NCBI RefSeq assembly: GCF_014062315.1
Contig: NZ_JACGLT010000005.1
Coordinates: 124,001-188,000, forward strand
Reading direction: 5' to 3'
Origin: Gelidibacter maritimus
GTDB lineage: Bacteria > Bacteroidota > Bacteroidia > Flavobacteriales > Flavobacteriaceae
Length of the DNA: 64,000 nt
Below are positions 10,603-15,318 of the stretch, in pieces. The position numbers and the translations under genes are program-made. Below the pieces are notes generated by a model that saw only the letters and a program-made list of their open reading frames with translations, searched no databases and was not told the origin of the DNA. Numbering within the stretch: the stretch's first letter is position 1; each line of letters begins with the position of its first letter.

Positions 10603-10761
10603 CTATGCACTTGGCTTAACTCGATCTGGTTTCATTCGTTGTTCTCTAAAGTAGGCAACAATTTCTTCTTTCGTCATTTTGGATAATTTAGCATCCAATT
10701 TGTCCTTAATTTCACGAGCCATTTTGACGGTGTCAAATTTTTTTTCTTTTTTAGTTTCCAT
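10603..10761 (-). CDS. Small basic/acidic helical protein, putative antitoxin partner of the PIN gene
   Basis: A 52-residue reading frame begins METKKEKKFDTVKMAREIKD and ends after KPDRVKPSA. It is charged and predicted helical, with the flavour of small antitoxins found next to PIN-domain genes in Bacteroidota. Its ATG overlaps the last 11 bases of the PIN gene, so the two are translationally coupled, with the toxin gene first; this is the reverse of the usual antitoxin-first order. Identification as an antitoxin is inferred from size, composition and position. Between it and the nrf terminator are about 160 bases with nothing recognisable. Confidence 0.6.
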   Translation of the reverse strand: METKKEKKFDTVKMAREIKDKLDAKLSKMTKEEIVAYFREQRMKPDRVKPSA

Positions 10762-11214
10762 AACTCATTATGTCTCTTGGAGAACGTATCTCCAATGGTT
10801 TGTATCCATTTTTAATATTTATCAAGTTATAACCTCTAATTCGCTGAATATTTACAATATGTTTAAAATTCCAACTAACGAGTAAATCCACTTGATTAAT
10901 TGTAGCCAACGCGATGTGAAGACAATCGGAATAGCTTGTCTTACCAACTACGTTTTCTTTAATATATTCTGCCGCAAGCTCTACAGCTTCATCAGTTTCT
11001 TCAACGAATTCGGTATCTTCGCTTTCGATTCCGCGAACTAATTGACGAACCTTTTCTGGTGCCAACTCTAACTCTCCCTCGAGCATTGTAGAAAAAACAA
11101 TTGTAAATTCCCCTTTATTTAACCTTCAAATAATGGTTTCGTGAACTCTTGAAATTCATCGTCAAAATAGCCACCAAAAACTGATGTGTCCAAATAAATC
11201 CGTTGTCTTTTCAT
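10751..11214 (-). pseudogene. Frameshifted PIN-domain (VapC-like) toxin
   Basis: An ATG at 11214 opens a frame coding MKRQRIYLDTSVFGGYFDDE and stops after 31 codons at 11119. The next frame, readable from about 11125 to 10751, continues the same domain: RLNKGEFTIVFSTMLEGELE and later SDCLHIALA and LVSWNFKHIVN. Together they make a PIN fold of about 153 residues with the expected acidic residues (Asp in LDTS, Glu in LEGEL, Asp in SDCLH) and the WNF motif. A single missing A in the GAAGG stretch near 11123-11127 (GAAAGG expected) would restore one frame. VapC-type PIN proteins are RNases. The reading is either a true inactivation or a sequencing error; no slippery heptamer is evident for programmed frameshifting. 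Confidence 0.8.
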
Positions 11215-12043: not shown

Positions 12044-13441
12044 TCAGAATTTGTGCTTTTGAACCAGGCTATCACGTTCTTTCTTTAGATCTGTGCTCAA
12101 ACCTATTTTGTAAATGTGCGGATTCTGAAATCGTTTGTATTCCTCTGGAAGTTGCTCCAATCGAGATTTTGAATACTCTGCAATCTCACTGACCGTTCGT
12201 GCCGGCATTACTTTTTTACCGTTTTCCATTACCTTCTGAAGTAAAGGTTCGTGTTCAAAACGCGTGAGTTCCAAACTCTTGTTTGCGTCAAATGAATGTT
12301 CCATTCGCGCTACATTTTCCTCATCATACATGGCAACGGCATCTGCACCGTAAAACATGCCATTTTTATCCAACATTCTGTACACCTGTTTTTTTGATGG
12401 TAGGGAAACTTTAATAATGTTTTCAGAAAGCTTGATCCGTGGTTCGCCGTTGTATTCAGACAACTTATAAACGCCATCTATTGCTGCATCAGGCTTTCCG
12501 GTCACCAGGTTTGTTCCCACACCATAGATATCAATAGGTGCGCCCTGTTCTTTTAAACTTTTAATGACATATTCATCCAATTGGTTCGAGGCAACAATTT
12601 TTACATAGTTTAAATCGGCGTCATCCAACATTTTACGTGTTCTTTTTGCGAGATAAGCCAAATCCCCACTATCCAATCGGACACCCAATAACTGCTCTCC
12701 ACTGCTCTCCATTTCCTTGGCCACCGTAATAGCATTTGGCAATCCACTTCTAAGCGTGTTATAGGTATCAATCAGTAGGACGCAATTTTTTGGTCGTATT
12801 TTTGCGAAATCCCGAAACGCCTGTAACTCATCTTCATAACTCTGAATAAAAGAATGCGCCATGGTACCTGAAGAGGGAATGTCGTAATCCTCCGCTGCTT
12901 TCACATTACTTGTACTGTCAAAACCACCAATAATGGCTGCCCGTGACGCATAATAGCCTCCGGTAGCATGGGCGCGGCGTAGCCCCATATCCAAAAGCAT
13001 TTCTGTTTTAGCACTATGGCGAATCCGACTGGCCTTTGTAGCAATTAGAGTCTGAAAATTTAGAATATTCAGCAGCATCGTTTCTATGATCTGTGCTTCT
13101 ATAATATTCGCTTCAACCTGTAGAATGGGACGGTTTGGAAAAACAACATCTCCTTCTAAACTTGATGAGATATTCCCGCGGAATTGAAAATCTTTTAAAT
13201 ACTCCAGAAAACTTTTTTCGAATCCGTGTTGTTCCAGATAGGTCAAATCGGAATCAGAAAATTTTAAGGTTTCAAGGATATTCAAGACATCCTCCAGTCC
13301 CGTAAAAATAGAATATCCGCCGTTAAAGGGATTGTTTCTAAAATAATAGTCGTAGACCGCTCGTCCGTCGGGTTTGGTTTTAAAATAGACCTGAGCCATG
13401 GTCAGTTGATAGAGATCAGTATAAGAAGCTGTAATGTTCAT
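12044..13441 (-). CDS. pncB: Nicotinate phosphoribosyltransferase PncB
   Basis: PncB joins nicotinate with PRPP to make nicotinate mononucleotide, entering the Preiss-Handler pathway. The protein is 465 residues long and begins MNITASYTDLYQLTMAQVYF, the standard start of the family. GLRRAH (153-158), GFDSTSNV (173-180) and the SGTMAHSF segment with the phosphorylatable His196 are all present, as is LLIDTYNTL. The gene lies directly upstream of pncA. It is preceded by a THI-box-like RNA and an intrinsic terminator ending 75 bases before its ATG, which suggests control by premature termination; that regulatory reading is inference. Confidence 0.95.
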   Translation of the reverse strand: MNITASYTDLYQLTMAQVYFKTKPDGRAVYDYYFRNNPFNGGYSIFTGLEDVLNILETLKFSDSDLTYLEQHGFEKSFLEYLKDFQFRGNISSSLEGDVVFPNRPILQVEANIIEAQIIETMLLNILNFQTLIATKASRIRHSAKTEMLLDMGLRRAHATGGYYASRAAIIGGFDSTSNVKAAEDYDIPSSGTMAHSFIQSYEDELQAFRDFAKIRPKNCVLLIDTYNTLRSGLPNAITVAKEMESSGEQLLGVRLDSGDLAYLAKRTRKMLDDADLNYVKIVASNQLDEYVIKSLKEQGAPIDIYGVGTNLVTGKPDAAIDGVYKLSEYNGEPRIKLSENIIKVSLPSKKQVYRMLDKNGMFYGADAVAMYDEENVARMEHSFDANKSLELTRFEHEPLLQKVMENGKKVMPARTVSEIAEYSKSRLEQLPEEYKRFQNPHIYKIGLSTDLKKERDSLVQKHKF

Positions 13442-13516
13442 TAGAATTTGATTTTAATTGAGAAGTTTAGTTGTTAAGATATTTAAAATACGAATGATTT
13501 TCTCATAAGATTTTCG

Positions 13517-13558
13517 AAAAAACAAAGGGAACAAGTTATATAAACATTGTTCCCTTTG
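13517..13558 (-). terminator. Intrinsic terminator between the riboswitch-like RNA and pncB
   Basis: Read on the minus strand, CAAAGGGAACAA (13558-13547) pairs perfectly over 12 bp with TTGTTCCCTTTG (13534-13523) around a 12-nt loop, followed by six T (13522-13517). It begins only two bases after the closing stem of the THI-box-like aptamer, the position expected of a riboswitch expression platform, and ends 75 bases before the pncB start. Confidence 0.88.
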
Positions 13559-13560
13559 CA

Positions 13561-13651
13561 AATCATAATCCTTCTTTTGGCATTAACGCTTTTGAAGTGA
13601 TACGGGTATATTCTCAGCTAATTTTAATAATTTAAGCACCCCGTTATGATT
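13561..13651 (-). promoter_or_regulatory. THI-box (TPP riboswitch)-like aptamer, divergent variant
   Basis: On the minus strand a closing stem P1 is formed by AATCATAA (13651-13644) and TTATGATT (13568-13561), 8 bp perfect. Inside it come the conserved TPP elements in order: CGGGGTGC (13643-13636), the core GCTGAGA (13618-13612) and ATACCCGTATCAC, which matches the E. coli thiM aptamer as I recall it. CGGG/CCCG make P2 and GCT/AGC close P3. The 3' half keeps CTTC/GAAG (P4) and TAATGCC, but the usual CTGAT and CAGCG pyrophosphate-binding strands are replaced by A-rich sequence. An intrinsic terminator follows. No thiamine gene is nearby; the downstream gene is pncB. Confidence 0.75.
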
Positions 13652-13779
13652 GTTTTATAAATATACAAAAAAAATAGATATCTTTAAATACCGATTGAAA
13701 ATTTAACATAAGTTTTTTATATGGTTCCAGAGTCATTCTTCCGCCAAGTAAACTGAATTGTTGTCGGTTTTCTACCTTT

Positions 13780-15318
13780 CTAGTTCTGTAAACTTTTCAA
13801 GTATTGCACGAGCGCCAACCGAATGTCAGATTGAGGATGATCAATAGAGGTTTCAATAGGATAAACTTTAATAATATCAGGGTGATTATCTTTTAGAAAA
13901 TCTAAGTTCGTTTCCATACCAGTAAGCAGGAACCCTAACATAGCAACCCGATAAACCTTTCCATTCTCTATATGATCTTCTCCAACACCCCATTTATTAT
14001 CAATCTTTTTTATGGTTGAATTCCGCAATAAATAGCCGCCACTACCTTTATTACTTTCACCAACTCCTAAAATCTCTTTTAGCAGACTTCCTTTCATGTC
14101 AACTTCTCTAATTTCTCCACCAAAAGGCATAGCTCTTAAGATATCATATTGAGAAACCGGCGCATATAAAATATCATCAACCCGGATTGCTCCCGCATTG
14201 ACAAGTACGACATCAGCCAAAGGCGCAGCAACTTGAACAGCGTTTACCACAAGTTCGGTTAAATTGCTTGGTTCTGACCTGATTATAATCTCCCTACCTT
14301 CAAGAGGCTCACTTTTTTCTATAACAATATCCGTAGCATCAAAACCTAAGGAACTGTAGTTAGCATTGGCAATTCCTTCCCATTTTTCAACTACGGTATT
14401 GGTGTGGGGATCAAGCGGAATGTCTTCATTAATATACCTTAATTTTGGAGACACTTTTAATTCACCTGTATTCTTATTTAATCTCATCGTATTCACATAA
14501 GCCGATTTCGCATTGGCATGGGCCTTGGTAATGTACACATCCCCTACTTTCTCAAACTGCATATCATGTTCATGCCCTCCCATAATCAACCCTAAGGTCG
14601 GAATTTGCTGGGCAAGTTTAATGTCATCCTCAAGATCCAAGTGCGTTAAGGCGACCACCACATCAACAGAATCCTTTAGTTGATTATATAAGTTTTTAGC
14701 AGTTGACATTGGGTCTGTATAATGCACATAAGACGCTTTATTAAAAGGCAAAGTCAACCCGATAATTCCAATTTTGGCCTGAGTACCATCGGCATCTGAT
14801 ACATTTAATATATAGGTTTCTGGAAATGCTGTTGTAGAATTTTTGAAAAAAGGCTGAACCGCATCACCAGTTTTGTGGAACGTATTTGAAGACACCCAGG
14901 TAAACCTGGATTCATCAATTCGCGACTGAAGTTCACTTTCTTTAATATCAAATTCGTGATTGCCAAAAACAACAAAATCCATTTCAGCAGCGTTAAGTGC
15001 TTCTACCATCTGCTTACCACGTATACTCTTTCCTTCATATTTCAAACTATTATAAATGGATGGACTTACAAAATCACCACCCATAACCAGAAATGTATTT
15101 TCATTTTTTGCCTTTTCCTCCTTCTTTAAACTGGCAACACGTGCAATTCCACCTTCCTTCCCTCCAGCTAATGGTGCAATTTCATAAACGTCATTGACTT
15201 GTACAAAAACAATATCGATTATACCATCGTCTTTTAGTGCGGTGTTTTTCTGAACTACTGAACAGGAAGTTCCAAACAATAAGATTACGAGCAACAGTAG
15301 CGAAAGTTCTTTTTTCAT
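13780..15318 (-). CDS. 5'-nucleotidase/metallophosphatase lipoprotein (UshA-like)
   Basis: This 512-residue protein starts with a signal peptide ending in a likely lipoprotein Cys19 (LFGTSC). It has an N-terminal calcineurin-like phosphatase domain with NDVYEI (42-47), GGDF (80-83), GNHEFD (119-124), LTHLD (224-228) and GGHEHD (247-252), then a C-terminal 5'-nucleotidase domain (about 320-510). Such enzymes strip phosphate from extracellular nucleotides, and some act on NMN or NAD, which would feed the neighbouring pnc genes; that link is inference. The first metal motif carries Tyr45 where UshA has a histidine, as in a recognised subgroup of the family. The substrate cannot be told from sequence. 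Confidence 0.88.
   Translation of the reverse strand: MKKELSLLLLVILLFGTSCSVVQKNTALKDDGIIDIVFVQVNDVYEIAPLAGGKEGGIARVASLKKEEKAKNENTFLVMGGDFVSPSIYNSLKYEGKSIRGKQMVEALNAAEMDFVVFGNHEFDIKESELQSRIDESRFTWVSSNTFHKTGDAVQPFFKNSTTAFPETYILNVSDADGTQAKIGIIGLTLPFNKASYVHYTDPMSTAKNLYNQLKDSVDVVVALTHLDLEDDIKLAQQIPTLGLIMGGHEHDMQFEKVGDVYITKAHANAKSAYVNTMRLNKNTGELKVSPKLRYINEDIPLDPHTNTVVEKWEGIANANYSSLGFDATDIVIEKSEPLEGREIIIRSEPSNLTELVVNAVQVAAPLADVVLVNAGAIRVDDILYAPVSQYDILRAMPFGGEIREVDMKGSLLKEILGVGESNKGSGGYLLRNSTIKKIDNKWGVGEDHIENGKVYRVAMLGFLLTGMETNLDFLKDNHPDIIKVYPIETSIDHPQSDIRLALVQYLKSLQN

Follow-up and report, generated by a model that had tools for sequence, protein, structure and literature searches.

Work on riboswitches nearly always treats them as leaders of the genes that they control. 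Trans-acting riboswitch RNAs are already known: SreA and Rli55 are so described in PMC8079631, and EutX in PMC5821096. Barrick and Breaker (PMC2258182) noted that a handful of aptamers do not lie next to cognate genes, and suggested either trans-acting RNAs or orphaning to account for them. In the TPP aptamer, as a partial text of PMC7824784 has it, the pyrimidine is held by G42/A43 and G40/G19, and the pyrophosphate by C77/G78 together with two Mg ions.

We analysed the window, the whole stretch of 64,000 nucleotides from Gelidibacter maritimus, whose minus strand carries an element that, judged from its sequence, is very probably a free-standing small RNA gene with a TPP aptamer as its ancestor. 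The element resembles the TPP riboswitch (RF00059) in its P1-P5 topology, its GGGGTGC / GCTGAGA / ACCC core and its L5 loop, and is homologous to it by covariance score; unlike the riboswitch, it rarely keeps both C77 and G78 across its family, has short and variable J4/5 and J5/4, bears its own terminator, and at 34 of 49 loci has no same-strand next gene. Read from its alignment and placement, the element is without the cis-regulatory position and the pyrophosphate contacts of the RF00059 family. Like SreA and SreB, the SAM-riboswitch RNAs of Listeria (PMC8079631, in excerpt), it would be a terminated riboswitch RNA, with trans action known for SreA/SreB and proposed here; unlike SreA, which the same excerpt also presents as the cis leader of a transporter operon, it mostly has no gene to lead. 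With the B12-riboswitch RNA EutX/Rli55 (excerpts of PMC5821096 and PMC8079631), it would share a riboswitch placed in a noncoding RNA with its own promoter, trans action being again our proposal. It differs in that EutX has a protein-binding part after the aptamer, which is cut off by ligand (PMC5821096, same excerpt), whereas the element has only a terminator. No published description of this free-standing TPP-like RNA family was found in the open PMC literature, which does not prove that there is none.

A TPP-type aptamer and a terminator on the minus strand

Positions 13517-13653 of the minus strand were recognised as a TPP-type aptamer followed by a terminator, both by reading the letters and with Infernal and Rfam. 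An earlier, sequence-only reading had placed a TPP-type core in front of pncB on this strand, and every part that it named is there: CGGGGTGC, GCTGAGA, ATACCCGTATCAC, TTAATGCC and the P4 stem, with strands CTTC/GAAG. The terminator with six T that it put directly after the aptamer is also present, with a stem of 13 pairs of which the outermost is G-U. From 13665 down to 13517, the order is a putative -7 box, P1, CGGGGTGC, GCTGAGA, ATACCCG, the P4/L5/P5 arm, and the terminator with its T6 (Table 1). The -7 box is of the type given as the Bacteroidota consensus, TAnnTTTG, in an excerpt of PMC7366714.

Table 1. Positions of the element, its parts and the neighbouring gene in the window
Feature	Position	Strand	Evidence or remark
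Whole element	13518..13656	-	Match to model R2, 127.8 bits (G000:C45:137518-137656); this copy is among the sequences that built R2
Putative -7 promoter box TATATTT, Bacteroidota TAnnTTTG type	13659..13665	-	TAnnTTT in 45/49 members vs 9.9% background
P1 5' strand ATCATAA	13644..13650	-	Pairs with 13562-13568; both-side changes in 6/7 P1 pairs, 37 sequences
P2 5' strand CGGG, inside CGGGGTGC	13640..13643	-	Pairs with CCCG 13603-13606
P3 arm and J3/2 (GCT...AGCTGAGA)	13612..13637	-	GCTGAGA exact in 46/49 members
P2 3' strand CCCG	13603..13606	-	Covariation across 37 sequences
P4/P5 arm	13571..13597	-	P4 CTTC 13594-13597 / GAAG 13571-13574, L5 TTAAT; Rfam alignment
P1 3' strand TTATGAT	13562..13568	-	Partner of 13644-13650
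Intrinsic terminator	13517..13559	-	Stem GCAAAGGGAACAA / TTGTTCCCTTTGT, 13 pairs, outermost G-U, T6 13522-13517
Promoter-like box of pncB, TATCTTA	13475..13481	-	Downstream of the terminator; cross-species alignment
pncB, nicotinate phosphoribosyltransferase	12044..13441	-	PF17767, PF17956, PF04095; neighbour, outside the RNA unit

The Infernal search proposed in the sequence-only reading gave a match to RF00059 over the full length of the model (positions 1-105) at 42.1 bits, E 9e-7 for 801 bases; this is far past chance, yet under the gathering score of 54.3, and a scan of the whole window with Rfam at gathering thresholds found no family. The Rfam library includes models for NAD-related riboswitch families and for the HMP-PP (thiS) riboswitch, all of which were absent from the six Rfam matches up to E 10 in 13200-14000. 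The window copy has A-U at one P1 pair where the other 10 of 11 sequences have U-A, and its P5 is weak, with a C.C mismatch at one of two model pairs.

Two simpler identities were rejected. The palindrome AAAGGGAA...TTCCCTTT is present at just 2 sites of the own genome, of which the second is an ordinary terminator between convergent genes, which argues against a generic repeated terminator; a closed ORF of at least 20 codons lies inside the element in only 6 of 37 sequences, which argues against a hidden short coding gene.

A conserved family in the Flavobacteriaceae

Custom covariance models, as the sequence-only reading had recommended, recovered the same module in other genomes. Model R1 was made from 11 sequences, with 20 pairs holding in 99.1% of cells, and model R2 covers aptamer and terminator; the genome-scale searches with both, at the levels of family, order and phylum, used stricter filters, at which weak matches are lost. 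R1 returned the module with its terminator from many genera among 397 Flavobacteriaceae genomes. With R2, the element, comprising -7 box, aptamer and terminator, was found in at least 36 of the 397 genomes and 25 of 237 genera, at 60.8-143.4 bits, these hits including the sequences that built R2. The count is a lower bound, as it takes copies down to 60.8 bits with a visible terminator, leaves out five hits at 57-70 bits (L145, L224, L226, L227 and L228), and leaves most weaker hits uninspected. R2 scores overlap at the low end, where an ordinary TonB leader, L224, reached 70.1 bits. All nine Gelidibacter genomes carry the element, at differing places. Two genomes hold two diverged copies each (L142 and L223 in G231; L220 and L231 in G287).

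Outside the family, the best hits scored 61.7 bits in an order sample of 196 genomes and 60.0 bits in a phylum sample of 247, both samples consisting partly of own-family genomes. Among 22 extra-family loci, 21 were readable, and 20 of these stand before a same-strand ORF like ordinary leaders, the other being L216. ThiC is absent from the own genome and from 32 of the 35 further element-bearing genomes, suggesting that the genomes without it probably depend on imported thiamine or precursors. A tie between the element and thiamine synthesis was discarded, since ThiC occurs in 3 of the 36 genomes with the element vs 79 of the 361 others, which is not significant (Fisher p 0.08).

The check on covariation, also called for by the sequence-only reading, came out in favour of a conserved structure. 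In the A4 alignment of 37 sequences, 96.9% of cells are paired and 17 of 29 pairs have changed on both sides; such changes occur in all six helices, including 4 of the 9 modelled pairs of the terminator stem, and the first pair of P2 is C-G in 17 and U-A in 16 of the 37. The covariation measure was 0.209 vs 0.116 in shuffles, of which 0/500 were as high, and at most 0.085 in slid controls; the shuffles ignore the relatedness of the sequences, so that this figure is support and not a probability. Unaided, RNAalifold predicted P2, P3, P5 and the terminator, but not P1 and P4. In a thinned set of 20 sequences, conservation lies in the aptamer core and the terminator, and no conserved seed or target was found.

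The family analysed below has 49 members, namely the 37 sequences of A4 and twelve further copies. In a tree of 80 aptamers over 87 columns, the 49 members fall into one 55-row branch together with five TonB-type leaders and L107, and the free-standing family (class C) is therefore not established as one clade; its single origin was not rejected (p-AU 0.395), with few columns and many forks unresolved.

The HMP side of the pocket is kept and the pyrophosphate side is changed

The sequence-only reading had the side that faces the HMP ring intact, which is borne out: UGAGA at 13612-13616 (minus strand), the counterpart of the HMP-ring pocket in TPP aptamers, is kept in the window, and GCTGAGA is exact in 46 of the 49 members. 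It was equally right about an A-rich pyrophosphate half, as J5/4, following GCC, has changed to AAAA (13575-13578, minus strand), with A/A in the Rfam alignment at the positions of thiM C77/G78. We take E. coli thiM to read A75 G76 C77 G78 at the four bases after GCC.

Both C77 and G78 (CG) are kept in 13 of 13 thi-gene leaders vs 3 of 48 members of the free-standing family, in which C77 alone is kept in 26/48 and G78 in 7/48; these counts refer to fixed positions anchored on L5 by hand, with hand-copied letters, and are without L106, L148 and L152 (class A) and L229 (class C). The C77-G78 pair is also absent at the canonical place in 14 of 16 TonB-type leaders, so that the loss also occurs outside the free-standing RNAs. 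RF00059 matched all of 20 relatives at 34.3-65.0 bits, and 6 of them lie above its cut-off, so that some may still bind TPP ordinarily; going by score, all six would be annotated as ordinary TPP riboswitches. Because so few members keep both C77 and G78, the ligand could be thiamine without phosphate or HMP, or else TPP held in a different manner, and we read the pyrophosphate pocket of the element as relaxed or altered. It seems moderately likely that the RNA has retained ligand binding.

The best of the alternatives is a structural or protein-binding small RNA, which would have kept the TPP-aptamer fold as a scaffold and lost small-molecule binding. The near-disappearance of the C77/G78 contacts is in line with such an RNA, as is the clustering of conserved positions in the aptamer core and the terminator and not in an exposed seed, and the exact UGAGA pocket in 46/49 members speaks against it, albeit weakly, because UGAGA is also structural. 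On balance we consider a mere scaffold unlikely.

The element stands apart from its neighbours

The next downstream gene is convergent in 34 of the 49 loci and on the same strand in 15, the directions being mechanical longest-ORF calls: L134 was scored convergent on a 66-aa ORF where a 70-aa floor gave a same-strand ORF, and L016 was scored same-strand on a 341-aa ORF with an opposing 74-aa ORF nearer. Inspection by eye of the next genes at the 49 loci revealed no thiamine gene, and the neighbourhoods vary by lineage (prfB, hisIE, a racemase, a chloride channel and others). As a control, all of 32 ordinary leaders stand before a same-strand gene, 16/16 of thi genes (class A) and 16/16 of TonB-receptor-like genes (class B), where the genes are what we take them to be by eye from their translations.

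Eight convergent loci, from six genera, also have an upstream gene pointing away (L127, L128, L129, L133, L136, L137, L150 and L231). Flanked in this way, the element leads no mRNA at these loci. Pfam, run for 29 proteins only, supports both neighbours at L129 (beta-lactamase fold / HisIE), L133 (OsmC / NAD-binding), L136 (redoxin / M28 peptidase), L137 (PD40 / RecG) and L231 (DUF892 / OEP), and one neighbour only at L127, L128 and L150.

TAnnTTT is found near the element start in 45 of the 49 members, with the box at -3 to -9 in 43, compared with 214 of 2166 upstream background windows (9.9%). By motif and position, the element thus appears to be a noncoding unit with its own putative promoter. 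At the other end, the terminator forms in 37/37 predicted folds, in 30 of them together with P1, and when the 3' terminator strand is removed, the 5' strand is mostly unpaired (median 75%, by thermodynamics only, without ligand or tertiary structure). No antiterminator was seen in the free-energy folds predicted for the 37 sequences, likewise without ligand or tertiary structure. In these predictions, aptamer and terminator are compatible. A same-strand next gene follows in 15 of the 49 loci, including pncB in Gelidibacter, and read-through control is possible there.

Control of pncB and plain decay are improbable

As the sequence-only reading stated, the genes downstream of the element in the window are not thiamine genes. 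They are pncB (PF17767, PF17956) and, after it, an isochorismatase-family gene (PF00857) consistent with nicotinamidase. Among named organisms, the best relatives of this pncB are from Gelidibacter. A short ORF beyond the latter (10751-11086, minus strand) presumably resembles part of a PIN-domain protein.

That reading went on to put pncB under the control of the element, and a cis-acting riboswitch for pncB (and pncA) with ligand-dependent termination would suit the local layout: in the window, as in G. pelagius, G. gilvus and G. japonicus, pncB has the same orientation as the element and begins 75-85 nt past the terminator, and an aptamer followed by a terminator is the order of a transcription-attenuating riboswitch. 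We nevertheless hold such a switch to be improbable. The collection of pncB upstream regions that the reading had asked for, made by a pncB protein search that leaves the own genome outside its 80 loci (eight of them with less than 4 kb of upstream sequence), did contain the element at 10 loci, but the other 70 are without it. The 10 belong to G. pelagius, G. gilvus, G. japonicus and G. mesophilus and to six members of the Aequorivita group (L046 and L049-L053), and in seven of them the element is 1.4-3.4 kb from pncB. In G. mesophilus, pncB comes 1.4 kb on, with a 341-aa threonine-aldolase-like gene (named by eye) between; the Aequorivita-group loci have about 2.3-3.4 kb between element and pncB, and in 5 of the 6 a prfB-like gene in opposing orientation comes directly past the terminator. 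Moreover, pncB has a separate promoter-like box (GGATATCTTnA type) past the terminator, which can be aligned across species whether or not they have the element, and the predicted folds contain no antiterminator. A link between thiamine and NAD status through a TPP switch, another suggestion of the sequence-only reading, found no comparative support, as in most genera the element stands before an opposing gene.

A GGATATCTTnA-type box upstream of pncB is common to several Flavobacteriaceae genera, other Gelidibacter included. At the place before pncB that the element occupies in Gelidibacter, two species have possible remnants: in Bizionia myxarmorum, a terminator that shares the stem but lacks the aptamer, and in Subsaximicrobium wynnwilliamsii, nothing more than the 3' half of a stem of this kind (L017 and L018, some 70-140 bases upstream of pncB).

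In the four remaining Gelidibacter genomes that were searched, the element lies at other places (L160 in G001, L158 in G002, L153 in G005 and L159 in G006). In the tree, those Gelidibacter copies that lie near pncB cluster with the ones from Aequorivita, and the remaining Gelidibacter copies fall with genus g112; the unit may have been transferred or relocated. A decayed TPP riboswitch, also entertained by the sequence-only reading, might be an ordinary aptamer that rearrangements have left without its gene. This would account for neighbourhoods that differ between lineages and for variable pyrophosphate-contact positions, but plain decay has little probability, because the aptamer is kept in relatives with compensatory changes in all six helices, terminator included, which argues for selection, and because its retention in 9/9 Gelidibacter genomes at different places and the -7 box attached in 45/49 members argue for selection on a moving unit.

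A proposed role for the RNA

We favour, with some reserve, a TPP-riboswitch-derived free-standing RNA gene that has an altered pyrophosphate pocket and probably acts in trans. The gene, descended from a TPP riboswitch, would yield an RNA of about 135-140 nt, transcribed from a Bacteroidota-type promoter with a start just before P1. The RNA would take the TPP-type aptamer fold, with P1-P5, the UGAGA pocket and the L5 loop, and would end at its own constitutive terminator, without a visible expression platform and mostly without a gene to lead. With conservation lying in the aptamer core and terminator, and no antiterminator, we think that the fold itself is the working part. It may sense or hold a pyrimidine-bearing B1 compound, which could be thiamine, TMP, TPP or HMP, and the ligand state may gate contact with an mRNA or a protein in trans; for such ligand-gated action in trans, we put the chance at slightly under even. 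This proposal draws on what the sequences themselves show: homology and conservation, covariation, elements resembling a promoter and a terminator, neighbourhoods that change, and convergent genes.

The fullest version is more tentative, and we offer it as a conjecture: an independent gene family of aptamer plus terminator without expression platform, whose ligand would have shifted from TPP to thiamine or HMP and which would act in trans as a metabolite-gated regulator or a metabolite-holding RNA, in hosts mostly without thiamine synthesis.

The family hints that a riboswitch can turn into its own gene. Aptamers that exist as separate RNA genes, some of them above the TPP cut-off, suggest that automatic annotation hides trans-acting or ligand-holding RNAs. 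As natural variants with replaced pyrophosphate contacts, they make the evolution of ligand specificity directly testable, and they offer a whole conserved family for testing the trans-acting and orphaning ideas of Barrick and Breaker (PMC2258182, as excerpted).

Related TPP-like elements

The class B leaders, linked to TonB receptors, share the pocket change with the element: 14 of 16 are without C77-G78 at the canonical place (L108 and L110 keep it), and 9 of 10 copies scored with RF00059 fall under its cut-off. Unlike the element, they lie on the strand of the TonB-receptor-like gene and have no attached terminator module. Thirteen leaders were assigned to the class partly on their sequence, and L108, L110 and L122 bring it to 16; its members include L001 in the own genome (G000:C12:92322-92405, minus strand), L111, L113-L117, L119, L121-L123, L146, L147 and L149. 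These TPP-like leaders of TonB-receptor-like genes, widespread in Flavobacteriaceae, may be thiamine-receptor leaders with altered phosphate sensing.

In another Bacteroidota family, f37, 11 of the 14 hits are leaders of same-strand genes and three have a convergent next gene: L216 and L240 (G656:C1) and L243 (G717:C1). At these three, P1 is a GC-rich hairpin that runs into T7-8 and so itself serves as the terminator, and J5/4 lacks CG in L216 and L243 and keeps it in L240. By eye, they look like another kind of free-standing TPP-like RNA, put together separately from the first; if this is true, the change from riboswitch to gene happened more than once.

At L107 / L145 (G053:C1:627272-627352, minus strand), a TPP-like aptamer with GTGT as J5/4 is followed by a different terminator and then by an opposing gene; near the free-standing family in the tree, it may be an intermediate or a separate orphan.
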